Below, one piece after another: positions 1 to 61,248 of a stretch of 64,000 bases of DNA. The translations under genes were made by a program, and so were the position numbers. This DNA is from Chromera velia (taxonomy: Eukaryota; Sar; Chromeraceae), in the NCBI GenBank assembly GCA_018398765.1, contig JAHBMJ010003194.1, positions 28,132 through 92,131 on the forward strand. Reading direction: 5' to 3'. Below the pieces are notes generated by a model that had not been told where the DNA came from, did no database searches, and saw nothing but the letters and a program-made list of their open reading frames with translations. The stretch's first letter is position 1; every line of letters starts with the position of its first letter.

Positions 1-3000
1 CTACGCCCACGATTTCCACTTTCTGTTTGAACTCGTCCAAAACGCAGATGACAACAGGTCAGACGGCAGGACAGGGCAGACCAGACATGATGATGCAGGC
101 AGGCAACTTCCCAGTCTCCCTTTGGTCTATCTCAACTGGCAGTACCACTGTTGTCGATCCCTCTTCCTCTGTCTCTTTCTTCTTCTACCTGCAGATACGA
201 TCTTGGTGTCCAACCGACCCTGGACATCGTGGTCTCCCCCCACGCCCTCGACTTGCTGAACAATGAGCTAGGGTTCAGGGAGGAGGACGTGCGGGCTCTG
301 TGCTCAGTCGGGAGGTCCACAAAGACGCAGGAGAGAAAGGAGGGCTTGCACATCGGTCGCAAGGGCATTGGGTTCAAGGCGACCTTTGCGGTTACTTCAG
401 AGCCTCATGTGCTCTCTGCAGGGTTCAGATTCCGTTTCGACGCCCAGGGCCCTCAAGGGAGCTACGTGCTGCCCCACTGGATCGACCGTGAAGATGTGCC
501 GTCTCTTCCTCATGCAGAGTGTGCGGCCCTTTGCGAGGCTACCTCCGAAGTTGAGAACGTGACACGCATCCACTTGCCCTTCTCGGTTGGTAAGAGGAGC
601 GCGCTGTTCGCGCGATCAGTGCGGGAGGTGCGTGCCCTTCCCGCGACGCTTCTTCTCTTTCTGAACCGACTGACAAGAATTGCAGTCCATGTGCGGGAAT
701 TGAAAACATCCGTTCCCGATGTCTCAGTGGCTAGTTACACAGGGGACCGAACAGCCAGGGAATTCTCAACCCGACTGATGGAGAGGGAAGACAGGGGGGA
801 GGTCATGGTCCCAGATGACCTCCTTGTGGAAGTTGAGGAGACGGGGGGTGGGCTAGCGACTGCGTCTCTGATATCTCTCCAAGAGTTCTCCACAGATGTC
901 CAAAACAGATCATCGAGTCAGAACGACTCGCTCTGGCTGGTGGTCAGGCGGCGACTGGAACCTCCCGTTCTCCATGTAGTCGAGAATGCGGCGGCAGGCA
1001 CAGCAGGAGAAGGGGGAAAGAAGGAGAGGGGACCTACTCTCCTTCAAGTCGCATTCCACCTCCCTGCCCTAGTCGACCCACAGAACCTCAACTCCGATTG
1101 TGACGTCCCTGAAAGACAACCTGTGTGTGCCTATCTTCCCCTCGGCCGTTGCGGCCTCCGTTTCGTTCTTCAGGCAGATTGGGAAGTTGTGGCAGCGCGT
1201 GATCGGGTAAAGGAGGATAGTGGGTGGAATCAGTGGTTGAGGGAGAGGGCTGCCGAGCTAATTGTTTCGGCCTTATCGTTGATGCGATTGAAGATGGCAG
1301 GAATGTCTGCACAGAAGGGTTTGGACAGTGAACTTCCCCGCGTTCCTCTTTCGTTTTTGTTCCACATCCTTCCCCTTCCGTCTGAAATCTCTTCCGACTG
1401 GTTTGTGCCTGTTGCCAAGAGACTGCTGAAGTTGATGCGCCGTCAAAGGTGTGTGCCAACCACCGAAGGGGGATGGGAGCTTCCAGATAGATGTCTTTGG
1501 GCAGATGCATCTCTGCTTCGCGAGGTTGCGGCCCTGTTTCCATCGGGAAGCGGGGGGATGTCTCTAGTGTTGCCGTCCCTAGTGGAAAGCCTAGAGAGGA
1601 GCGGGAGGACAGAGGCTCTCGAGGAGTTGATTGGCCCCCCTTTTTCAGAGCACTATGTGTTGAAGCTGCTCCAGAATATGGACGCAAGCGGGGAGCTAGA
1701 GACGAAGCCTGCCCGCTGGTGTCAGCAGGTCCTCCTCCTTCTTGTTCGTCTCGGCCGTTCGAGGCCCCAGGTGCGATCACGGAGGGAAAGTGGGGGGGCA
1801 AAGAGGGACAGGGGAAAGGTGAGTGTGACGGAGGTTCTGCAGAGTCTCCCTCTTTTGCCCCTTCGTGACGGTACGAGGGCAGCGTCGTCCTCTGGAGGGC
1901 TGTTTGTGGAGGGTGTGACAAACCTCCAGCAGCAGGGAGGCACTACAGACCTGGAGGGGCTCGATGGGAGTCCAGTCGCCTCTGGAGGGCACCAGAAGGG
2001 AGGGATGGGGGGAAATTCTTCAAGAGACTCTGCGGCTGCGTGGAGGTCCATGGAGGGTCGAGAGGGACTCCAGCTGTGTCGGCTGGTGCGTGTGGTAGAC
2101 AGCAGCCTGTTTGAGGGTCTCGCTCTGGATGAGCTTGTTGTGCTGCGGATGAGTCTGAGTACTGCGTTTTGGTCTGCATGTTTCATACCTCTGGTGGCTT
2201 CTCGATCTCTTTTCTTTCTCCGCTTGTGTTTGTTGGAGTTTTTCTGCTCATTTGCTGTTTTACACTTTGAAAGTTTGCTTCAGTGTTTGTGGAGGCGGCG
2301 TTGTCGGCCTTGTGCATGCTTTGACGGTCGTTGTCGTAGCATTTTCATGCATGGGAAAATGTGAAGGAAAGTATACTGGAATGGAGTAAGACTTTTTATC
2401 ACATAATGTGTTGGTGCTTCTTTGGGTATTGTTTGTTGATTCGTGTACTTTTCGAATTCGCTTCTATGTGCAGGAAATGCTCTTAAACGATTTGGGAGTG
2501 CGTGAGCTGACTGATGAGAGCGTCACGCTGAGACTGACGACCGTCTTCTTCCCTGACGACCACAAAAGCGGCAGTGGAAATGAAAGGGAAAAGGGGAGAG
2601 CAAAAGAAGAGGCGCAGTTGCTTCTCTCAGATGCCCCTCTTGTGATTGACGCTTTCAGATTTCTTGTCGAACAGACGGTGCGAGGAAGAGGAAAGGAGAA
2701 GAGTGTTAGAACTCTCCTCACGAGACTTCCCCTCCCCTGCATTGTCTCTGTTCCTCCCGGTGGGATCAGTGAAGACAGACGGCTGTCCACACTCACAGGT
2801 CGAGACCTTCCTGAGAGTTTCTCTCTCAAATTTGGCCTCTCTGTTCTCGCCTGTGTGGGAGGAGGAGAAACAACGAGGGGATCTTCCTTTAATGCAGATC
2901 CTCCTGTGTCAGCATCTGTCCTTATGGACAGGCTGATGTGGAACTGTGCCGTTGTTCTCGTCTCCCCTACGGAGCAGCCGGTCCTCTTCCCTCGCCTCTC

Positions 3001-6000
3001 GTCTGCAGCAGTCTCCTCCCATATCCCTGCAGCCTCATGCATGGGCTCTGCTGACTTGTCCTCTCTGAATCCCCTGAGCCTGGATGTTCTTGGAGACCTC
3101 GGAGATCTCCCCTCTGTCCCCTCACACACGTGGCCCTGGGCTGTGGTGCATCCCGCCCTTTTCTTCCTTCCCCTTGCGGCAGTAGAAGAGAAGGAGAAGC
3201 AAATGGTCGAGCTGCAACGGCTCGCTGCCTCTGCTCAGAGATCCAAGTCCGACGAGGCCCAACACTGGTTGGACAAGAGGCTGCAAGAGGAGGAGGGGGA
3301 GAGATCTCTCTCTGCTCGAGCACAGAGAAGGACTCTAGAGGCATGGATTACAGCCCTGCGTACTGCAGGAGTGAGTCACTTCTTCTCCCTACGACAGCAA
3401 ACCTTGCACATTCCTTCATATCCGATGGACGTCAACTGCCGCATGCTCCCGCCTGAGGGCGTGGCTCTGATGCCGTTCGAGAGATACGCCCAGCTCTGGA
3501 TGCATCAGATCTTCTGTCCCCCCACAGCAGCAGCAGCAGTCGAGCAGGGTGAAGGAGAGGAAAACAGACAGATCCCCCCCCCCCAATGGCCGAAAGAAAC
3601 TGTGACTTTGGAGGACTTCGTTTGCCCCCCCTTCGAAAAAGCCCTCCTCCAGCTGGTCCCCTTTGCCCTCTCAGGATCCTCAGATGCGTCTTCCAAACTC
3701 TTGAAGCTCCTCAAGGCCTTCGTGCAGGCGCAGGCCGAGTGGCAGAGATACACGCCCCCCCGCCGTGTGCTTGGAATGATGGGCGCCTCCTTTGCGGTGT
3801 CAGAGGAGGTTGCCGAGTTCCAACGACGGCAGAGAACAGCAAGCGCAGGTATGAAGCAAGAGGCTCCTCAGCCATCGCCCCTGCAGTCCTCCTTCATGTA
3901 TTTCGCCCAGACCTGGTATTGGATTCCGAAGGCTGACGGTAGCGGATTGGCACCCCCGCCTTTCTTCTGGCTCCGTCATGATGCGATTCTCAGAGTTCTG
4001 CCTCGGTCCGTCATGCAGCCGTTCGTTCTCTCCGGAGAATTTGACGGTGCGGACCATGCAACTGAGACCGGTCTGGGGACTCAGAAGGGTCTGGGTGTAA
4101 GTGGTTTGAGGAGCCTGTCAGAGGGGGCCAGACTGGTACGGCTCCTTGACGATTGGTCCTCCCGTCCCCCCGGGACGTTTTTTGCCAGTCTGGAAACAAT
4201 GGACTCATTCTACAGTCTGTTTCTGCATCTGTCAGAAGACGAGAAGAGAACCGCAACGGACCTGCTGAAGAATTTGACTGATACAGGTCGACCTTTGATT
4301 TGGACCCCCCCCCGCCCCTCTTGGGGTATGTGGCAGACCCTCGACCGCACAACAGAAGTTGAGGGCATTTGGTGGGCAAGTGGAAGGTGTGGGGTGAAAT
4401 CGTGGGCACGTCCGGTGACTGAGCTGCCAGGGGTGGCTACGGAACCCCAGATGGGCTTTCTCGATGCTGCCATTCCCGCAGACGCCCTCTACCTCTTGCT
4501 GGATACTGTTTACAGCAAGGACACGTGCAGGGCTCTGGGAGAATCTGTGAGCCTTTGCAGCCAGCACCCGCCTATCGAGGCAGTGGTGGTGGCAATGGAA
4601 ACTGTTCGAAAGTCGCCTCTGCTGAGGCCTGAAGAGATGACCAAGCTCTTCCTCCGGTGCTGCGCGCACCTGAGAGACTCTCTGACAGAAGACACGAACA
4701 CCATCACCCTCGAGTGTGTGAGAGGTCTAGTATCTCGCCGTCTGTGGCCCGCAATTTTGCCCGACGGGACCTCCGAGAGCGTCAGTCTGTCCGAATTCAC
4801 CGTGATAGATCCCGTCTCTGCGAAGGACTCAGGACTCTACGGGGACTCTGGTGGTGGTCCCAAAAGACAGGTCGTGTTCCTGCAACAGGAGGGGGGGGTG
4901 TCCTTTCCGGTCGTTCTCCTGTCGTCTGTGAAAGCTCACCTCGAGACTAGAAAAAGATTTGCCCCAAGCGGTGTGAATGGGGACAGAATTTCTCCGGAGG
5001 ATGAGCTGATTGACGTGATCGCGTCTCTCCGACGGATTCTCTCCTCTGCTGCTGGAGAGAGCCTGACTGTGGGGGATTCAGGCTGCGAGGCAGAAATTCG
5101 ACTTGTCGACCGGCTTCCCCTCAGCCTCACGGACCCTCAGAGGTGCCAGAGAGTGGCACGAGTAGACGAAGCCCGGTGTCCGTCCCCCTTCGCATCAGAG
5201 AGGGGGGCACTCAAGGCGTTTGCGGGCTGTCAGCACTTGTTGCTCTCCTGTGTCTGTGCCCTTTTTCGCAGACTGTCCAGCATCAGAGCAGCAAAGGGAA
5301 AAGGGCAGCAGCCAAATCCATATCCAATGCATCACCAAAAGCTCTGGGGTGCTGCGTGTGCCCTCGAGGACTTTTTCTCTTCGCAGGATGGACAGGAGGG
5401 AGAAAGCGGGGTTGCTCTTATTTTCCCTCAGCTGATTGAAGGAGGCGCTGAGTGTCGTGTGGGGGCGCTGAGGGTTCAGTACGCAGTTGGGGGGGTACCC
5501 TTTGCAGACACGGTGGTGGAAGTCGAATACAATGAGAATGCTCACCAGATTCTGTGGCAAGAGTCACAGAGAGAAACTCAGAGTAATCGAGAAACGTCGA
5601 CTTTCGACGACTCAGGTGATGTGGACGACTTTTTGAAGAGACAATTGAAGGCGCTGTTGACCTTGCAAGCGCCAGGGAAAGATTTCCTCTCTCCTTCTGA
5701 GACTCATGGCGAATCGTCAGACAGTCTCCGAGAGTTACAGAGAGTAGTCGTGGAGACCGTGCGCAGTCTGACCACTCTTTTGGTGAGTGAGTGGAGGGAC
5801 TGCAACGACCGCGTGTCCGAAGTTGAGCGTCTCGCAGTTGCCCTTCCCATGCAGTCTGACGTGACGGGGGCGGCTCAGAGGGAGAGCCAGCCTGAACCTT
5901 CCACCGTGCTGAAGAGAAAGCTTGAGTGGTGCAGACAGTTGGTCGAGCAGCAGTGTCTCTCAGCAGGTGAGGGGACGGGGGCACAGGCAGGGGTAGCGGA

Positions 6001-8521
6001 TGAGGGTGGGATTGTGAGGAATGCCTGCCTTCAGGCATGGGAGCTATTGAGCGCAAAGGTACCGAGCTATCTCCTCGGGGAGAGATGGAAGCTCGCTCAG
6101 CAGGGTGACAGGCGTCTGTTTGGAATTGTTGAGGATTCACACCCCCTCCTCCAGGTGGCAGCAGAACATATCCAGACAGTGTGCCAGCAGGGTGCTCGAC
6201 CTGGTGTGGAGGCAGTGGCGGTGTACATGAGGGACGCGATCAGAAATTTCCGTCGCGCTGTTGCTGAGCGTGCCTGTGACGCCATTGAGAGGCTGGAGGC
6301 ACAAGTGCGTGAGGCTGAAGAGAGGGAGGAGGAAGAACGGAGACGGGAAGAGGAAGAGCGGAAGAGGAGGGAGGAGGAAGAAAGACGAAAAAGAGAAGAA
6401 GAAGAAGAAGAAAGACGATTAAGAGAAGAGGAAGAGAGGCGAAAGAAAGAGGAGGAAGAACGAAGAGAAAGGGAAGCTGCGGAAAAAGAAAAGAGAAGAA
6501 AGGCCGAGGAAGACAGACTCCTTTCCATCATGAAGCAAGAAGAAGAGGCAGCAAAGTTGAAGGCCGGAAAAGGAGACAAATCAACTGAGAATGCCACAAG
6601 GCCCCCAAGAAAACGAGGGCCCCCCCAGTTGAACTTTGCTGCTATGGGGGATGCGCTACTCACCTCCACTCCTTCCATCACCCTCCCCCCCCGTGCCGAC
6701 CCTCCCACAACCACAGCACACGAGCCCCCACCCGATCATCTGGTTACCATGGACATGACACGCCAGCTAGTCCTCAGAGAAGGTCCTCGTTCCCCTTCCC
6801 CGTCCCGCCCCCACCCCGAATCCAACCGCAACCTCATCCAGGAACCTCAACAGATTCCAAGAGGGGCTGCACAGGGCACTGTGCAGGCGGACTCTCTGCA
6901 GTACTCCACAAACCCGTCAGCTGCTACCAGTTCCATCCGCCCTGCCACTACGCCTTGTACCTCTTCTACCCCACCCAACGTCACCCAGGACGCCAACAGA
7001 GGGGCACAGCCTCCTGGTCACTCTGTCGGAGTTCCCGCCGCCCATCCCCACCGCCAACCCGACGCAGCAGCAGCAGCAGCAGACGAGAGAACGTCTTCCA
7101 AGAGTGTGCCTGCAGAGGTGTCTGAAGAGAGAGAAAGAGGCAAAGAGGCCGGCACCTCTGCAGTCTCATGCAACCCCTCTCCAAGTGACTCAGAGCGCCG
7201 CACAGCAGCAGACTCCCGTCCTCCCTCTCCCCCTGAGAAGGCGCATCTACCTGTGTCAGAACCGGAGGGTCCGATTCCCTCTTCGGCTGTCGAAGCTTCG
7301 GCTGAAGACGACACCACAAGCAGAGCAAGAGAGGAGGAAGGGGAATCAGCAGCTGCAGCTGTGGGCGTCTGCTGTACCTCTTCAGAAACAGAGGCTGCAG
7401 TACAGGGTGTGCATGGGGCGTCGGGAGACATTCTGCCGTTGTCTGAGCACGGGCAGGAGATAGCGGTGGAGAAGTTACGGTTTGTTATCCATACAGACGG
7501 CCCTCCTGCCGGTTCAGGAAGGGGGCAAGCATCGTATCATGAGGTAACGGCCACCAACGGCATCCCGTCTGTCACCGCAGTCGGGGGCCGTCCGCGTGGA
7601 GGACGAGGCGACGCCGGGTGGACAGAGTCGGACCCGAAAGGCCGAGTTGTGCACAGCAGCAACGAGTGGCAGGAAGAGGATGACGGGGCGTTCCGGGTGT
7701 ACCTGACAGACCCAGAAAGGCTGCGCGTAATGCGAGGACAGGAATCCCCGGATGCGCGTGCACGGGGGGGGCGTGGAGATCACCTTTTGGGTCTGGAGTT
7801 AGGGCGCACGGTGGGTGAATTCCTCAGATGGCAGGACAACCAAGAGGGAGGGGGTGTCACGGACTCGGCCTCAGTCTCGGGGACTGTGACAAGACTCACA
7901 GGCACAGGGGGTTGGGCCAGCCGGGCACAGATCAAACATGTCGGGCGGGTGGCTGAAGGGTGGGTGCGGGAACGCATGGAAGAAATCTTTTTTGGTCGAA
8001 GGGTTGTGTGGGTGAACGAACGGGCCGAGCAGAGCCTTCCGTTTGACCTCATCGTTCTCCCAAAGGGGGGGCATAATTCTGGGTTGGTCCCAGAAGGCTC
8101 CAATTGGGGGGGGGATGACCTCACAGAGCTCCTGAAAGACTTGAGAGACGCTCTGACGGAGAGACATGGGAGATCGGAGAGCACTCGGGCGCTTCCACTT
8201 GATGAGTGTCTGTTCGTTGAAGTCAAGGGCTCTGTTCGCCCTGCCCAGCGGAAGCCGTTTGTTGAAGTATCGTTACAGGAGTTGAGGTGGGCAGACCGCC
8301 TAGGCGACAGGTATGAGATCTGGAGAGTGACCGGACTCTGTCGGCAGGAACCAGAAGGGGAAGAAGGAAGATCGTCTGAGGGACAATTGGAGGGGGAGAT
8401 CGAGCGTGTGAGGGTGAAACAGGCTTGCATGACTGGGAAGGTTCATCTGCTCCTCTGCTTCCCTGCCGCAACTGCTGCGGCTACTGGTGCTGCAGCTGTT
8501 TCTTCTTCATCTATGGGCTAA
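1..8521 (+). CDS. NO VEIN-like protein: GHKL/HSP90-type ATPase fold plus C-terminal DUF3883 (5' partial)
   Basis: The first exon is cut by the window edge (frame from base 2) and ends at 57. An intron runs 58-194 (GT..AG), and the join restores one frame: an N-box ELVQNADDN, a G1-like LLNNELGF and a glycine-rich GRKGIGFK. These are the nucleotide-binding motifs of the GHKL fold, in the variant form seen in plant NO VEIN. Exon 2 runs 195 to about 2140 (exact donor unresolved). The last exon starts at 2474 after a clear acceptor and is open for 6 kb. It holds a Glu/Arg coiled coil (about 6270-6590), a disordered Pro/Ser region (about 6600-7600) and a DUF3883 domain (about 7930-8340; motifs LPFDLIVLPK, ECLFVEVKGS, YEIWRVTG). 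NO VEIN is a nuclear factor needed for auxin-dependent vascular patterning in Arabidopsis; its role in protists is unknown. The stop codon (8519-8521) lies in a transposon terminal repeat. Confidence 0.8.
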
Positions 8522-17573: not shown

Positions 17574-19301
17574 CTACATCTTTCCCCCAAGAGGCAACCC
17601 CGACAGACTTACAGCCAGACCAATCACCGCCCCCATTGCACGCTCTGCACTGTGTAGGCGTACTTCAATCGACCGAGTCAAATCCCCTCCCTCAAACAGA
17701 AGGCAACCCAAATATTTGTACCGATCACACCAGTCTACTTCCTTCCCTTGGTATAAAATCATGCCGTTACAGCCCTCGCGGTATTCACAAAGGCGCAGGA
17801 CCTTGGTTTTCTTCAGATTGACATTCAACCCCCACTTTTTGCAATACCCCTCCAGGGCATCGAATTTTGCTTGGAGGTCGGCTGCTGAGTATGCAAACAA
17901 GACAAGATCATCAGCATAGCCTATACTTCCCAAACCGGCCCCAGCAAGGTGAACCCCCTCCGTTTCCTTTCCATCTCCCCGTTTTCTTTTCTGAATCTCA
18001 TCATGCAGGTCATTAATGAATAATAGAAAAAGCGATGGGGATAACGCATCACCTTGCTTAACCCCTGCCCCCTCCGGGAATAGAGCCGAGTCTCCATCAA
18101 CTCTCGCTTTCACGCCTCTATACATTGATGCAATCATCAATAGATCTCTCTTCTCTATTCCCTCAGCCTGCAGCTTTGCCAGAAGCTTCAGCCGAGGGAT
18201 AGAGTCAAACGCCTTTGAGAAGTCGACAAATCCGCCCAAGAGCCCCTTCTTGCCTCTTCTATATTCTTATCCCAAGTCTACCACTGCTCCGATCCCCTCT
18301 CTTGTGCCCACCCCTTTCCTAAACCCAATCTGTCTGTCATCAAAACAAGCTTGCTGACGGATTCTATCATCCATAAGGAGACCAAAGAGCTTTGCAAGGG
18401 GGTTAACGACATGGACTAGACGCCAGTCATTCGGCTGTGGCGAAGAGGGACCTTTCGGAACGGGTACAATTCTCAACAAATTCCAGTTATCAGGCCAACA
18501 CGCATATGCATGCATTAAATTAAAGAAAACAAACAAAAAGAAGCGAGAGATGGGAGAGTGACAAAAGCAAAGGTTGAGTTGTTGAGAAGAGATACCATCG
18601 AGCCCTGCCGCTTTCTTTCTATCCATTCCTTTCAGACGATCAGTCACCTGCTTATACGAGAAAATGAATTGCTTCGGGGGCTCCGGCTCCGGATCAGGCT
18701 CTGGCAATTCTTCGCCCTCCCCCAAAACCCGTGCCCAATGGTTTGAGAAGTCTCTTGCCCCTGGTCTTAGACCGTCTTTCGACAACTTTCTCCTTTTTTT
18801 CCAAAGGAAGAGGGGGTCATTAAGCAAATGTGTCTTCGCTTTTTCAGTTTCTGCTCTCTCAAATCTCTTCCTTTTCTGCCGGAAGATCTCTCTCCTTTTC
18901 TTTAAGATGTCTTCCACCCTTTCCTGCTTTAACTCTCTCTCCACCCCACTTGCACAGTCCTCAACTTCTTTCCTTACTTTCTTCAAGTATTCCTGCAGCT
19001 CTTTACATTCCTCATCCTACCACCCTTCCTTCTCTCTAAACAACGTTTTGAAGGTAGGAGGCTGTTGCTTCTCTATCGCTTTCGCTATTACTTCCTTCAC
19101 CGGCCCAACCAAAACCCGACACCAGGCTGTGGCCAAGGCTTTCATCCGGTCTTTCTTATCTTGAGGGCTCACTGGGGAGGAGGTCAAAGAAGAGGGCAAA
19201 AAGGCTGTCGAGGAGGGTGGGGAGGAAGACACAGGAGGGGGTGGGGGAAGGGGAGGCTCTTCGAATGGTTCAACTTCTCTATAATGCTCCCAAATCCTCA
19301 T
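17574..19301 (-). pseudogene. LINE copy 1 reverse transcriptase, with in-frame stops
   Basis: In order on the minus strand: a Lys/Arg-rich linker; KKAAGLDGISSQQLN (RT motif 1); PVPKGPSSPQPNDWR; QIGFRKGVGTREG; FVDFSKAFDSIP (motif A); KQGDALSPSLFLLFINDL (motif B); GYADDLVLFA (catalytic YADD); and LNVNLKKTKV. In-frame TAG near 19018 and TAA near 18267 break the segment, and TAG near 17574 ends it. All are within one reading frame, so the copy died by point mutation as well as by the endonuclease frameshift. Confidence 0.85.
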
Positions 19302-48579: not shown

Positions 48580-49167
48580 CTACACAGGAGATTGAAGCCA
48601 AAAACTCGTGAGCGACAATGAATTTCATCGGAAGACGAGGAGACCAAGAGTTTTGTCGCGGGAGAGCTAAGAGGGCGGGGGGGGGGTCCGACCACCCAAT
48701 GAAACGAGATGCGATCTCCTCACAAGCTCAAGCAAGTTGGGACTCTGTTGCCCCTGGAGCGTATGCCGGGTATATCGATATTTGAGGGAGGAAGCTTGTT
48801 AGAGACTTGTGGCTCAGAATTCAAATAAAAATTTTCCTGAGCCGTCTCCTGCATGCGTTCTGATAGCACGCTTTCCGAGCTATATGGATTGAGCTCGGCC
48901 TTTGCCCGCCCGTCAGGCTTCAGCTCGGCCTTGGCCCGCGCCCCCTCTGGTTTCAAGCATCGATGCATTAACGTTAACTGTTGTCAAGGAGGGAGCAGTA
49001 TGGGAGCAGCATACGAGACCTTAGATACCTTATCAGTGCTTTCACAACTCTCTCTAAATCTACACTCTTGCACTTTGAACCGCAGAGCGTTTGAATCACC
49101 TTCGTGTTTCGCTTCAGTTGAATTGATCGAGTATTACCACAAGAATCGGCTTTGCATTAGCTGAGAG
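48580..49167. other. Intergenic between divergent genes
   Basis: Should hold the promoter of the TerD gene and the upstream part of the RING gene. No motif was identified with confidence. Confidence 0.4.
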
Positions 49168-51215
49168 ATGAATCCGGACTTGCCCCCTCTTTATGCGCCC
49201 GGCTTCGAGCAGACTGGCGGCAGTGCCCCCTCTGCCCCTCTTCTGGACGCGAGCAGTGACCTCTCTGTGCCCAGTGAGGCCTCCCTGTCCTTCGGCTTGA
49301 GTTGGGATTTCAACCCAGGGAAGGTCGTTGACGTCGACATTCAAGGTCAGTCAGACTGGTGGACTCCGGAGTCTTAAAAGCCGAAGAGGCCGAAGTCAAT
49401 CTTGACACCGAACGATGGGCCTTTTGTTTTCTTGTGCAGCTGTGCTGGTCAACGACGAAGGGGTGATCATCGATGCGGCTTACTACAACAACCTGAAGGC
49501 TTCAGGCAGATCTGTCACGCATTCGGGTAAGCTCTCACGCACCCTTCTCGGACCTTGGCTCTGCAATCCTAGACTTCCGGAATTACTGCGTGTGCCAAAC
49601 GCTGGCGAACTGGTCTTCCGTATCTCTTTCCAGCACAACAGCCGCGGGGAGCGTTTCCGTATCCGTACCGTCTCCCAGCACTGTTTAAACTTATCAAACG
49701 CAAATCCCCCCCGTCAAAGATCCCGGTTCCCTCAATCACCCCTTGCCTTCTGTTCTCTTTCTGCTCGGTTTTCTAGTCCACCTGCGCCCCTTCCAGCCTC
49801 ATCGCCTGAAAACAGCAGTAGAGGGGGTGCCACAACTCCTCTCCCACGTCCATCCATCTGTCTGTCCGCTGTCTGTGAATGCGGGAGGGAGGATGAAAAT
49901 GCACGAGAACTCCTTGCCGAAGATCTCCAGGTTTACAATCTGATTGTTTGTTCATTCATTTTCTCTGCAGGTGACGAAATTGACGGGAAGACCGAGGGCA
50001 TTGACGAAAAAGTGACGTGCCACCTGAGTCTCCTGAACAGAAATCACCCAACCACCCGGGCCATCTTCATCGTGGTCGCATGCTATTCTGGAGGCACCTT
50101 TGCGGACGTTAGGGAGGGTGAGTGCTTCTTTGATTGCACGCATGCTCAGGGGGGGTATAGACGGATCACGGAGGAAAGCAACGCACTTCGTGCCGACGTG
50201 TATAATGGTCAAAATACGCATGCAGGGACCGGGTTTCCTGCAACCAACAGAGCGGCATCCCTTTCCTTCCATCGGGCCATTCAACATACATGGAATAGGC
50301 AGCAACAACACCAATTGGTGCAGATAGAAAGGAATGCTGGCTGGTTGACGCAAACAAACGGACGTGTGCTTGCGAGACAAGAAATTCAGGAAGACCAGGT
50401 TTGGGAGGACGGTTCTGAGAACAGGTTGCCTCGCTCACTAGCTGTCTTTTTTTTTGGTTGAGGAGAGGAAGAGGCGCATGGGGCGAGGAGACTGGCGGGA
50501 ATGGCGATCGAATGAAGCTGGTCATGATGGACAGTATCGAACCATGTTTACGAAGACAGAGAAGGAGAGAGAGAGAGGGAGGGGGAGGGGGAGGGAGGGA
50601 GAGGGAAGTGTAACGATTTTGTCTTCTCCCTAAGCAGGTAAATTGGTGATGATGGATGATCTTCAAAGGAGACCGCTTGCGAACTACGTACTGACCTCCA
50701 CAACGGCAGACCGGACCTGCAACATTCTCTGCTGTCTGTACAGGGTGGGTCTGTCTCCCCACACGTTTCTCTCTGTATTTGTTTTTTCTTCCTCTTCTGC
50801 GTCTCACAATCCGTTCCTCCCTCCCCCCTTTTTTTCTCCTTCGCCTTTTTTTCAAAGGTAGGGGAACCTCGCCTTTTGCCTTCAACGTGCGTCGTTTCAA
50901 GTGCCCTCTTGTTTTCTCTTTTCAACTGATTTCTTTCTTCCTGACAAAAAACCCTCTCGATCCATTCACCCATGCACCGCAGAAAACACCGAGGTCAAAC
51001 CAGTGGGCGCTGCGGACCCTCGACCGGCTGACCTCAGGGTCTCATTTCATGGACGCCATCGCGGACCTCCAACTGGCAATCCGGCAAGTGATGCCAGACG
51101 CCCCCGCGGCCTCCCGCCCGGTGCACTTCCAAATGTCCAAAGGTGGGTCGGGTAGGGGCGGGTCCTGGAGGCTTTATTGACGGTTTTCCTTTGGTACCGT
51201 TCCTGAAGTCTGTTC

Positions 51216-51249
<34 letters not shown>

Positions 51250-51498
51250 TCTGATTGCTTTCTCTCTCTCTTTTTTTTTTTCTGGATCTCTCGGGCACTC
51301 GTGTTCCGTGCGTTGTTGCACAGATCAAAGAGGAGTCTGTTACTTTCTACTTCTTCTGTCCCGCTTAGTATTCTCACTTTGCTTGCCTACCTGTCTTTCT
51401 CTGCAGGGCACGTGATGGATTTCGGGAACGATTTGTCGACAATCACTTGTGGCCTGGGTGAGTTGGTGCATTGGTCTCTGTGTCTTTTTGCTTTGTTC

Positions 51499-51529
<31 letters not shown>

Positions 51530-51530
51530 T

Positions 51531-51561
<31 letters not shown>

Positions 51562-53406
51562 CTCTCTGTAGAAGAAGTGTGAGGCCATGGAAAGGAAGAG
51601 AAGTCCAGGTCAAGGGAGAACTTGCTGTCAGATAATCGCGTTTTCAAGCAGGATGTCGCTTGTTTTTATATGATTATCTTGTTGGGGCAGTCATGGAAGA
51701 TGGAGATTGGAGGAAAGGGGGTGTCCACTCTAGCTGTGTGAGAGTTTCCATGTGGGAAAGACGTCCAGTACGCCCAAAACGACAGTCTTCTCTCAAACTT
51801 TGCAACCTCCCTGGGATTTTGCTCCTTTATTCGAGCTCACTCTCAAGCCCCATTCTCAGCTGTATGACGTTTTTACTCCTGTGTCCCCGCAGGTTGGGAC
51901 ACGGACCTTGGCAACATCGACCTTGATGTGTCGTGTGTGATGTATGACATGAATGGCTCCTTCCTTGAGGTACGCCGGCATGTGCTTTTCTTCTTCGGAG
52001 ACCTTTCTTTCAACTGGGTCTTGTTGGCCTGATGCATTAATCCTCACTTTCCGAAAGTTGCGTAAAGCTTTCCTCGAAGGCATGGAAAGGAGTGACTCTG
52101 TTCCATGCTTCCTTCGAGGGGGGGGCCGGGCGACGAGACATCCCAGGACATGTGTGACACAAAATCATCCTTGACAAAAAAGATTCCAACCTATGACAGA
52201 GTTCAGAAGCCCAAGGACTTTGGATGCAAAGCAAACTAGCGCATACATTCCATATTTTTCTCTCCCGGTCGTTCTATCTATCTATCTCTGCAGTCTGTGT
52301 TCTTTGGGAATCTCCAGAGCTGTGGAGCCCATTCGGAGCCTGGCGCAGTCGTTCATTCAGGAGACAACCTGACAGGGGAGGGGGAGGGGGATGATGAGCA
52401 GATCGTGGTGTTCCTCAACAAGGTTGGACCGACGGTGGCTCAAGTGTTCTTCTGTCTGAACATTTACACACAGGTGGGAAGGGAAGAAGCTTGGTGGTTT
52501 TCGCCGTCTTGGCGGTTTCCGCCGGCTTTCTCTCTACTGTCTCCCTCGTGTTTTTCCGTCCCCCTTGGCACGGGTGCCTTTTCCTCTCAAAGTGTCTCCT
52601 GCTGCCTCTTTTCCTCTTCAAGTAACTCTGAAGTATCCAGGCTCTGCGTGTCGAAATAAAGGCAATACAATTGATTGAAAGTCTTGTGATTCCCCACACC
52701 TGCAGGGCAGGACTTTCGGCAATGTGGCCAATCCCTACGTGAGGGTTGTGGACTCTAACCAGAGGGAACTTTGCGTGTACAGACCCAGAGAGGTCCCCAG
52801 TGTGAACGGACTCTTGGTCAGTTCTTTTCACGTGGTCTTTTTACTGAAAGACGCTTGTGCATTCCCATGCAGTCACTCGCTCTCTGCCCTTTCATCCTTC
52901 TCCCCTACTTTGTCCTCTCCTGCCTTTCCATACAGCTGCACTCCATCCATTGTTAAATCTTGTACACTTAACTTTTCAGGAATCAAGAGATCGAGGTAGC
53001 TTCCCGCAAGACTTTAGTCATCGCATCATCGCGTGATCGTCTATCGTCTATTCCACCATGCATGCAGGTGTGCCGCCTGGCGAGGGACCCCCGGACCCGT
53101 CGGTGGGGCTTCCACGCTCTCGGCGTTCCCTCCATGGGCTCCATGTACAAGGACTGCCTTCCCGAGATGAACAAGCTCTTCTTCACAAAGACAAACGCAC
53201 TGCTCTCGAGAATGCCGACGCAGCCTCTAGATGGTCCCGCCCCCTCCCAAGCCCCCACTCCCACTGTTGTGATCATGCAAAATGGGGCAGGTCCCGGGTA
53301 TCCCCCTCAGCAACATCAACAGCCTTATGCAAGCCAGCATACATTTCACTCGCAACACACTTACCACTCTCAGGGACAGGAGAAGAAAAAGTGTGTGATC
53401 ATGTGA
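49168..53406 (+). CDS. Double TerD-domain protein with C-terminal CaaX prenylation box
   Basis: Ten exons: 49168-49345, 49440-49526, 49971-50117, 50638-50744, 50983-51142, 51407-51457, 51893-51969, 52294-52473, 52706-52816 and 53068-53406. All have GT..AG borders and every join is in phase, giving 478 residues. TerD domain 1 (GLSWDFNPG, YYNNLKASGRSVTHSGDEID) is diverged. Domain 2 (GLGWDTDLGNIDLDVSCVMY; VVHSGDNLTGEGEGDDEQI; GRTFGNVANPYVRVVD) is near canonical and keeps the acidic calcium-binding segment. TerD proteins bind calcium and are linked to tellurite and stress responses in bacteria; the Dictyostelium relatives bind cAMP. After a Pro/Gln/His-rich tail the protein ends EKKKCVIM, a farnesylation-type CaaX box with basic residues before it, which suggests membrane anchoring. 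Met at 49168 is the first in frame. Confidence 0.88.
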
Positions 53407-58233: not shown

Positions 58234-59632
58234 AGGCAGACATTGTGGTGTTAACTGAAATGAAGTGCCCCTCCATGCCCGTAAGAACATCCACTCACAC
58301 AGGGCATAATTTTGATCACTTTGAGTGGTTGAGAAGGAAAATCAAAACGGAAGGGTCAAGAAGGAAAGCCGCAACCATCGGGGAAGCAAGGATAGGGGGT
58401 ATATGCATCCTAGTCAGGAATTTTTTAGTTTATGAACTGCAGCCAAGGTAGGAGCTGGTGGGTCAAAATCTGGTCCGTCTGTCAGTGAGTATGCCTTCTC
58501 TCTCAGAAGGAAGGGAGTTAGCTACAAGAGTCCTCGATGTTTTCGATGTGTTTTTTTACCTAAAGGGTCTGACCTAAGACAAAAAGACAGGGAGCTAAGA
58601 GACAGAGAGAGAGAGGGCGTGATCGATGCACTGTGTCAGGTACCTCTCTAGGATTTGCGTATCCTGGTTGGGGATATGAACAGCAAACTGGGGACTCAGG
58701 TGCCGGAAGGGCTGACTTGGGAAAGAATGTTATGTCCCACTGATGAAAGAAGAGAAGAGAACGAAGTTGATGCTTATAAGCCCTCTCGATTGTCAGCCTG
58801 CAGCCATGGTAGTCAACCTAACGAGCAAAGGAATTGGCTGATCCGTCTTTGTGAACGCTCTAACTTAATTTTTCTCTACGGCCTGTCCTTGAAATGTGAG
58901 AGGCTGGGTGTTAATGTCTCCTTTCCGGGCCCGTGCACCTTTTTTAAAGCAGGAGAAGAAACAACAGCGATTGATCACTTTTTTGTAGATCCTTTTCTTT
59001 TGATAGCCTGGTCCTCTGCCACTTCAAACCTGGAAGCTGACTTTGCTCCACAACATGTTGTTCTTTCTTTTTCTTTTTTTCTTGATTCATCTCCTCTCCC
59101 TATGTCTTCTGATCCTCCACATGCCCCCACGGGTGAAAAGAATTTCTCTTTTCTACCCTCTCTCCTCACTGTAAATAGAACTTCCCCGGTGACTGATGAC
59201 GAAATGATTCCTCTTGCCAGAGCGGTCCTACCGTTCTCTGAGACGGTTTTTCCCAGCCTGTTCGATAGAGGGGTAAATGAACTGCGTGAAGAAGGTCAAG
59301 TTGTTCCCCCTATCCCACCCACCCCTGACCTACCACCCTCTCCCCTACAACCAGCTCCCCTTCAGAATGCTCCCCCCCCCAACTCTCTCAGCAAGGCTTC
59401 TTATCTTGAGCAATTGGAACAGTTGGGCCTTTCTTGGGAAGAAAGGCTAGCAGACAGCAAAGTGGGTGCAGTGGTAGACGGGAGAAAGGCATCCAAGAAG
59501 AGAAAACAGTCTGGGAGAAAGCAAAGCACCCGTCAGGCTTGGTGGGACCCACAATGCCGCCTGATATATTTGAAGGTGAAGGAGGCAGAGGAAAAGGCAA
59601 GACATGTCCCAAACCCTTCCCACCCTCTGTGA
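58234..59632 (+). pseudogene. LINE copy 2 endonuclease
   Basis: DIVVLTEMKCPSMP (58238-58280) and IGGICILVRNFLV give the N-terminal half. After frame changes, ILVGDMNSKLG (58658-58690) has the catalytic D-x-N and AIDHFFVDPFLL follows. The terminal SDH motif is degraded (APQHVVLSF). The downstream linker is Pro-rich and basic. Confidence 0.7.
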
Positions 59633-59916
59633 AAAGAATGTGTCAAACTGAGAAGGGAAAGAGCTCGACTGTTTGTAGCAAAAAGGAGTAAGCTTGAGCA
59701 ACAGACAGCAGAGAGACTAGCTAGAGAAGCAGCAGTTGACCCCTCGAAAGTTTGGCAATGGAACAGGAAAATCAAAACACAGAGGGGAGGGGATAATAAA
59801 CCCACTGCATCTTCCTTCATTCAGTTCTGGGCAGGGGTCTTCGACGGTCCTGGTCTTCTGCCTGCACCTGTTGGTCTGGCCTTCCCCCTTTCTTCTCAGC
59901 CGCCTTCTCTATATAC

Positions 59917-61248
59917 ATGATTGAGGAAACACTGAAAGGAATTGACCTAAAGAAGGCGTTGGGTTTGGATAGGGTTGGCCTTTGTCACCTCTCGTTATGT
60001 TTTGGTTTTTCTCCTCTCTCTTGCTTGCTGCTCTTTGTCTTTTTCAATTTGTTTCACCTTTTTTCTTTTTGGCCTGAACGGTGGAATGTATTGTGCATTG
60101 CTCCCGTCCCCAAGGGCCCGCCGAGTCTCAACTGTAACGAATGGCACCCGATCCACATTGTGGGGCTTCTGAGTAAGATTTTTGCTTCATTGATGGACTT
60201 AAAGATCAAGAAAGAAGTGAAAATTGACGAAAGGCAGCTCGGCTTCAGACAAAGGGTAGGGACAAGGGAGGCCTTCACTGGTCTGTCTTCATTAATTCTC
60301 AGCTCCAACTTGAAAAAGAAGAAGAGCCCTCTGATTGCCACATTTGTTGATTTCAGCAAGGTGTTTGATACAGTTCCTCAGGTTAAAATGTTAGAAAGGC
60401 TCAGGGAGGAAGGAGTAAGCCAAGCCGATGTTTAGATAATTCATTCAACGTATAGTCAGGTGAAGGCTCGGGTGGATGGGGCAACAGAATGCTTTCTAGA
60501 AGGCAGAGGAGTAAAATAAGGCGATCCTCTCTCTCCTCTCCTCTTTCTTCTTTTCATCAACAATCTGTATAAGTTCGTTAGCTCCGATAATGAAAACAGA
60601 AATCAAAGCTCGGCTGGAGGTACTGATAGAGAGAGTCTGACTCCTGTCAGACTGTCTGATATTTTAATCGAAAGCATCGGATACGCTGATGACCTTGTTC
60701 TGTTTGCTGACAGTGCTTCAGACTTGCAGAAACGCCTGTCTTGCCTCGAGGACTATTGTAAGAAGCACGGCCTGAAGGTGAATTTAAAAAAAACAAAAGT
60801 TATGCGTCTCTCCTCCCCCCACCCCGACCTAGTGCCCTGGACCCCTTTTCTTTATGAAGGCAGACCAGTGAAAGCGGTGAGTAAATATAAGTATTTGGGC
60901 AACTAGGTTTTTGAGGGTGGGGACCTTAACAAGACAGTCGAAGCCCGCATTGAGGCGGCAGAGAAGGCATTGGGGGCTGTGTTTGGTACTCTCTCTTCTT
61001 TAGGCTTTGTTTCTCCCTTTTCTAAAATTACTTTGTTCAAGGCCCTCTGGCTGCCAGTCACGCTATATAGATTAGAAACGATCCTGCTGAGAAAGACAGA
61101 TGTTGTTTGCCTCGATGCATTACAGTTATGTTTTGTTCGATATTGTTTTGATCTCTCTTATCACTCCTTTGTTTCGCCTTCCCTTCTCTCTTTCTCTCTC
61201 GAGCCATTCAGTTCTCTACTTGGTAAATTGAGTGGGGGATTCATCTAA
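59917..61248 (+). pseudogene. LINE copy 2 reverse transcriptase
   Basis: DLKKALGLDRVGLCHLSL, PVPKGPPSLNCNEWHPIH, QLGFRQRVGTREAF, FVDFSKVFDTVPQ, GDPLSPLLFLLFINNLY, GYADDLVLFADS and LKVNLKKTKVM occur in order. Stops: TAG near 60433, TAA near 60518 (at the Gln of K-Q-G-D in copy 1) and TAG near 60903 (at a Leu of copy 1). Confidence 0.85.

Follow-up and report, generated by a model that had tools for sequence, protein, structure and literature searches.

A tandem TerD protein ending in a CaaX box: a candidate farnesylated, calcium-binding adaptor between membrane and cytoskeleton

Here we describe a gene whose predicted product carries two TerD domains and ends in the CaaX box CVIM, and we propose that it encodes a farnesylated, calcium-binding adaptor at the cortical or apical boundary between membrane and cytoskeleton. 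We place the probability of this whole reading at roughly 0.5; the narrower claim, that the protein is farnesylated, is a good deal safer and probably correct. TerD proteins are known as bacterial tellurite and stress proteins, and a tail signal of the CaaX type normally receives a lipid in eukaryotes. Both elements are thus familiar by themselves, and their combination appears to be new. Titles and the beginnings of abstracts in the open-licence PMC literature that pair "TerD" with "prenylation" or "farnesyl" yielded no description of a prenylated TerD protein, in agreement with the initial annotation, which knew of none; the terms "TerD", "prenyl" and "conoid" are likewise absent from the main text of the Chromera assembly paper (PMC4501334).

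Positions given below refer to the window, that is, the whole stretch of 64,000 nt that was analysed. The gene was modelled by enumerating GT/AG sites around each proposed junction and keeping only those combinations that left a single open frame. Its features are as follows.

49168..53406, + strand: TerD gene, predicted, 10 exons and 9 introns, start ATG at 49168
49168..49345, + strand: exon 1, start, DLPPLY N-terminus, beginning of TerD domain 1
49440..49526, + strand: exon 2, TerD domain 1
49971..50117, + strand: exon 3, TerD domain 1 with its divergent loop, GDEIDGKTEGIDE
50638..50744 (or from 50635), + strand: exon 4, TerD domain 1
50983..51142, + strand: exon 5, last part of TerD domain 1, then the stretch between the domains
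51407..51457, + strand: exon 6, beginning of TerD domain 2
51893..51969, + strand: exon 7, TerD domain 2
52294..52473, + strand: exon 8, TerD domain 2 with the full calcium loop, HSGDNLTGEGEGDDE
52706..52816, + strand: exon 9, TerD domain 2
53068..53406, + strand: exon 10, last part of TerD domain 2, then a linker rich in Pro, Gln and His (somewhat fewer than 60 residues), EKKKCVIM, stop
53380..53403, + strand: EKKKCVIM, basic run and CaaX box

Both of the TerD domains named in the initial annotation exceed the curated Pfam cut-off (PF02342, 25.3): domain 1 covers residues 35-185 (65.6 bits, E 5.2e-18) and domain 2 residues 234-386 (107.9 bits, E 5.7e-31). The Pfam scan of the protein returned no family besides TerD and no GTPase domain, and the NCBIfam scan gave one match far under its cut-off (36.6 of 600 bits). 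In the PDB the protein is closest to two bacterial TerD structures, 3ibz (1.1e-18) and 2kxt (4e-18, identical in sequence to 2kxv), both reached through domain 2. Within the protein, domains 1 and 2 share 26% identity.

To compare the calcium loops, the two domains and the TerD domain of a second gene in the genome (the paralogue described below) were aligned with 82 relatives, of which 80 were the best among at least 519 TerD relatives found in at least 593 stretches of prokaryotic contigs, and two came from viral contigs, where 11 stretches with a pattern match resolved into two loci holding a TerD relative. Eleven positions of the loop H.GDN.TG.G.GDDE are invariant in all 82 relatives, and we take these conserved positions to be the calcium-binding ones. 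Domain 2 keeps 11/11, the paralogue 10/11 and domain 1 only 7/11, the changes in domain 1 being N to E, T to D, G to T and D to I. Beyond the loop, a hand count in the same table found 12 more invariant columns (11 kept in domain 2, 7 in domain 1 and 6 in the paralogue), and all three domains retain the aspartates that follow GLGW or belong to the DLD segment. On these grounds domain 1 is, by sequence, a divergent TerD copy. The earlier statement that it had lost part of its acidic segment is an overstatement, because the loops of domain 1 (HSGDEIDGKTEGIDE) and domain 2 (HSGDNLTGEGEGDDE) hold six acidic residues each; its suggestion that the domains differ in role has a real basis in this divergence, but with equal acidic counts a loss of calcium binding in domain 1 does not follow. 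The TerD of Klebsiella is described as binding calcium in the excerpt of PMC8123226.

A tree of the three TerD domains of this genome with 29 of the 82 relatives (the other 53 were too similar and were dropped) left the three ungrouped, in a topology with 12/29 inner branches open and with long branches; kinship with the TerD proteins of parasites considered below is therefore by domain only.

The second gene emerged when the genome (177.8 Mb, 4040 contigs) was searched with domain 2 (E up to 10, best candidates scored): six places were found, five in the TerD gene of the window and one on another contig, C1424, and a search with the TerD family recovered the same two genes only. Assembled from eleven exons (L023 3315-8985), the paralogue encodes 701 residues arranged as an N-terminus rich in proline, a vWA-like stretch that contains DDSGSM, a C2 domain (Pfam E 2.8e-15) and a TerD domain (E 1.8e-25) that is 33% identical to domain 2. 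The vWA-like stretch matches VWA_2 weakly (E 0.051, under the cut-off), and its DDSGSM could, in our own reading, be a metal site; an exon-by-exon search of the genome for the TerF-type vWA (PF10138) gave no match. The order of domains resembles that of a copine fused to a bacterial TerF. The paralogue ends in CQHLGL and carries no CaaX box. With CaaX in the one protein and C2 in the other, each TerD protein of this genome has its own kind of potential membrane-targeting device. The two N-termini also have a PPxY-type motif, DLPP[LA]Y, in common, which lies within the first ten residues and outside the TerD homology (MNPDLPPLY, window 49168-49195; MSDLPPAYD, L023 3315-3345).

We propose the following mechanism. 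The farnesyltransferase of the cell would attach farnesyl to the C-terminal CVIM of the tandem TerD protein, after which an Rce1-type protease would trim the tail and ICMT would methylate it. The farnesyl tail, together with the KKK run, would hold the protein on the cytosolic face of a membrane, from which the Pro/Gln/His-rich linker would allow the TerD domains to reach out. Domain 2 would bind calcium and the diverged domain 1 would probably serve in protein contact. As a whole the protein would be a probable calcium-responsive adaptor from the membrane to the cortical or apical microtubule cytoskeleton, a role it might exercise alongside the vWA-like/C2/TerD protein of the same genome. Among the points that weigh against the adaptor, the paralogue is without a CaaX box, only three lysines precede the box, and TerD may bind other ligands, cAMP being mentioned for a Dictyostelium relative (PMC8123226) and nucleotide derivatives for TerD (PMC7159879).

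Of the competing explanations, the one that holds up best, though we judge it clearly the less probable, accepts a real, farnesylated CaaX end and makes the protein a general calcium-, nucleotide- or stress-responsive component of endomembranes or the plasma membrane, with no link to an apical or flagellar cytoskeleton. The CaaX box and the prenylation enzymes suit this explanation equally, the window holds no pointer to the cytoskeleton, and the excerpt of PMC8123226 connects TerD of bacteria with stress and with the homeostasis of calcium, and a Dictyostelium relative with cAMP. Against it stand the eukaryotic TerD proteins with a reported location, which are placed at the apex of Toxoplasma gondii, in the flagellum attachment zone (FAZ) of kinetoplastids and in a centrosome proteome of Dictyostelium; these are the locations that surfaced in excerpts of open-licence text, and others may sit elsewhere.

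A second explanation bears on the CaaX end itself, which might be a chance C-terminus on a soluble TerD protein without prenylation; we consider this unlikely, slightly more so than the preceding one. All elements of the box are present, with cysteine at -4, an aliphatic pair and an FTase-type last residue directly before the stop. K-Ras4B carries this same CVIM box, a terminal methionine favours farnesylation, and a basic run after a low-complexity linker is usual in prenylated proteins. For comparison, all stop-ended open reading frames of at least 30 residues in the six frames of the window were collected (n=1285). A loose CaaX, C[VILAMT][VILAMT][MSQACTN], ends 2/1285, so that a chance rate of about once per several hundred to a thousand applies; three basic residues before the CaaX cysteine occur in one of the 1285, the TerD gene. 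Estimates calculated from the composition of the two TerD proteins put chance at 9e-4 for such a box alone and at 7e-7 once the basic run is included, figures that are post hoc, the TerD gene having been chosen because it stood out. That choice, made in a hunt for oddities, speaks for a chance end along with the two loose CaaX ends of the window and the paralogue without CaaX. So does composition, which backs the tail weakly, because third-position GC drops from 0.71 in both TerD domains to 0.54 over the final 65 codons, the overall intron GC being 0.49. The opposing evidence consists of a box of the kind FTase prefers, the basic run and the low-complexity linker before them, the two estimates, and a farnesyltransferase beta gene in the genome.

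This last gene, on contig C3693, is a single open frame matching the prenyltransferase beta family (PF00432) with E 1.6e-100 over positions 2-291 of 304, a family found in 0/14 of the prokaryotic controls that were searched for comparison. Against the PDB it scores 320 bits with FTase beta chains and 247 and 225 bits with two further FTase beta chains, compared with 156 bits for a combined FTase/GGTase-1 beta and about 112 for GGTase-1 and GGTase-2 beta. The alignment shows that it retains the RPW...(F/Y)W, LVD.CYSFWQ and D.YH segments, which we take to surround the tryptophan pair of the pocket, the ligands of the zinc and a tyrosine-histidine pair, presumably acting in CaaX recognition and zinc binding. 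Its prediction as a farnesyltransferase beta is clear. The one further prenyltransferase beta locus found (C3465) gave a weak match to GGTase-2 beta (E 0.002, for one of its two pieces). PPTA repeats gave 7 matches on 3 contigs, 4 of them above the cut-off, and may belong to a Rab geranylgeranyltransferase alpha; there were also 3 Rce1-like matches and one ICMT match. Since prokaryotic controls match these families too (2/14 for PPTA, 11/14 for Rce1-like and 5/14 for ICMT), these hits are supportive and not decisive. Taken with the farnesyltransferase beta, they make farnesylation of the TerD protein plausible.

The frame of the tail depends on the gene model. As the initial annotation held, the ten exons are in phase and lead to EKKKCVIM: the rebuilt single open frame encodes 478 residues (479 with the alternative exon 4 acceptor), ends in QEKKKCVIM and stops at 53406. 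The ten introns of that annotation become nine, 94 to 520 bases long, all with GT-AG borders (9/9). An in-frame TGA lies at 49162-49164, upstream of the ATG at 49168. The frame filter left two combinations, which differ by one residue at exon 4 owing to a tandem acceptor (50638/50635). The textbook CVIM end is likewise upheld: residue 367 is the first of exon 10, and the Pfam match of domain 2 extends about 20 residues into this exon in the CVIM frame, so TerD homology fixes the frame and the CaaX end is no frame artefact. On a read-through check, eight of the nine introns contain 1 to 4 in-frame stops and intron 2 contains none; its splicing is supported because TerD homology spans the junction of exons 2 and 3. 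A misplaced last exon or intron, with a different end to the true protein, is very improbable: the frame-open intron 2 and the two acceptors at exon 4 speak for it, the TerD match that enters exon 10 in the CVIM frame and the uniform GT-AG borders against it. If intron 2 (49527-49970, 444 bases) were retained, TerD domain 1 would gain an internal 148 residues and the frame would be unchanged.

Elsewhere in the window, an open frame at 17577-18266 on the minus strand matches the reverse transcriptase family RVT_1 (E 7.3e-25) and is probably part of a retroelement. Frames at 58652-61245 (+ strand) look LINE-like by eye, and 58652-59629 is without a Pfam match at 0.001. A stop-to-stop frame of 2042 codons occupies 2390-8515 (+ strand) and has near its end a marginal match to the 'NO VEIN' family NOV_C (whole-protein E 8.9e-6, with no single stretch passing alone).

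Two further observations concern the genome as a whole. The alveolin family (PF12314) gave 11 matches on 7 contigs, and one of the 14 controls also matches; these hits suggest an alveolate. A superoxide dismutase exon (L114, C2846:48788-49042) matches chain 1 of 9hyu, 'Superoxide dismutase [Fe]', at 97/97 residues (217.6 bits, the next match scoring 85.5), which by alignment is near identity; we take PDB entry 9HYU to be the photosystem I of Chromera velia, which makes this alga the probable source of the genome. Another copy of superoxide dismutase is also present in the genome.

Among known systems, bacterial TerD (PF02342; 3ibz, 2kxt/2kxv) is linked to the window protein by the TerD profile and by domain 2 with all 11 of the invariant loop positions. 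It differs in that the 82 relatives are trimmed open reading frames of 184-271 residues, long enough for a single TerD domain but not for an extended linker as well; to our knowledge, a CaaX end would be meaningless in bacteria. K-Ras4B-type CaaX proteins resemble the window protein in a basic run followed by CVIM; they differ from it in that no GTPase domain was found here by Pfam and that its lysines number three only.

For eukaryotic TerD proteins the comparison is by description, taken from excerpts of the papers cited. Dictyostelium CapA and CapB are likewise eukaryotic TerD proteins, of which CapB was found in a centrosome proteome; they differ in being described as cAMP-binding, with a carboxy-terminal half derived from a tellurium-resistance protein (PMC3188802). 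In kinetoplastids, a distant lineage, FAZ28 and FAZ30 of Trypanosoma brucei contain TerD, and FAZ28/30 of Leishmania is located in the FAZ, on the side of the cell body, and its loss shortens the signal of a FAZ marker (PMC10953051); the likeness is the TerD domain, theirs being at a membrane-cytoskeleton junction. T. gondii 254870 and 295420 are listed as TerD proteins at the apex (PMC7951837, Table 1) and would share with the window protein an alveolate host, if the genome is that of an alveolate. The former is also listed as a putative inner-membrane-complex protein (PMC11219001), and the latter is APR11 of the apical polar ring, whose presence or absence in Chromera is covered in a figure of PMC13387612, its TerD content being taken from PMC7951837. 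The apex location of 295420 is credited to a study with 3'-end gene tagging (PMC7951837), so that a free C-terminus is seemingly unneeded there, a point against the adaptor reading if 295420 is an orthologue at all.

More broadly, one could speculate that eukaryotes early on co-opted a bacterial Ter-type calcium module to tether membranes to the organisers of microtubules (at the flagellum attachment zone, the centrosome and the apical polar ring), and that in this probable relative of apicomplexans it is held at the membrane by a farnesyl tail in the tandem TerD protein and by C2 in the vWA-like/TerD protein, a scenario that we regard as doubtful. The conoid of Toxoplasma moves in response to calcium. 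Should the proposed adaptor reading be true, the gene would offer a molecular handle on how eukaryotic TerD proteins act and a free-living counterpart of the TerD proteins in the apical complex of Toxoplasma, which have received little study.
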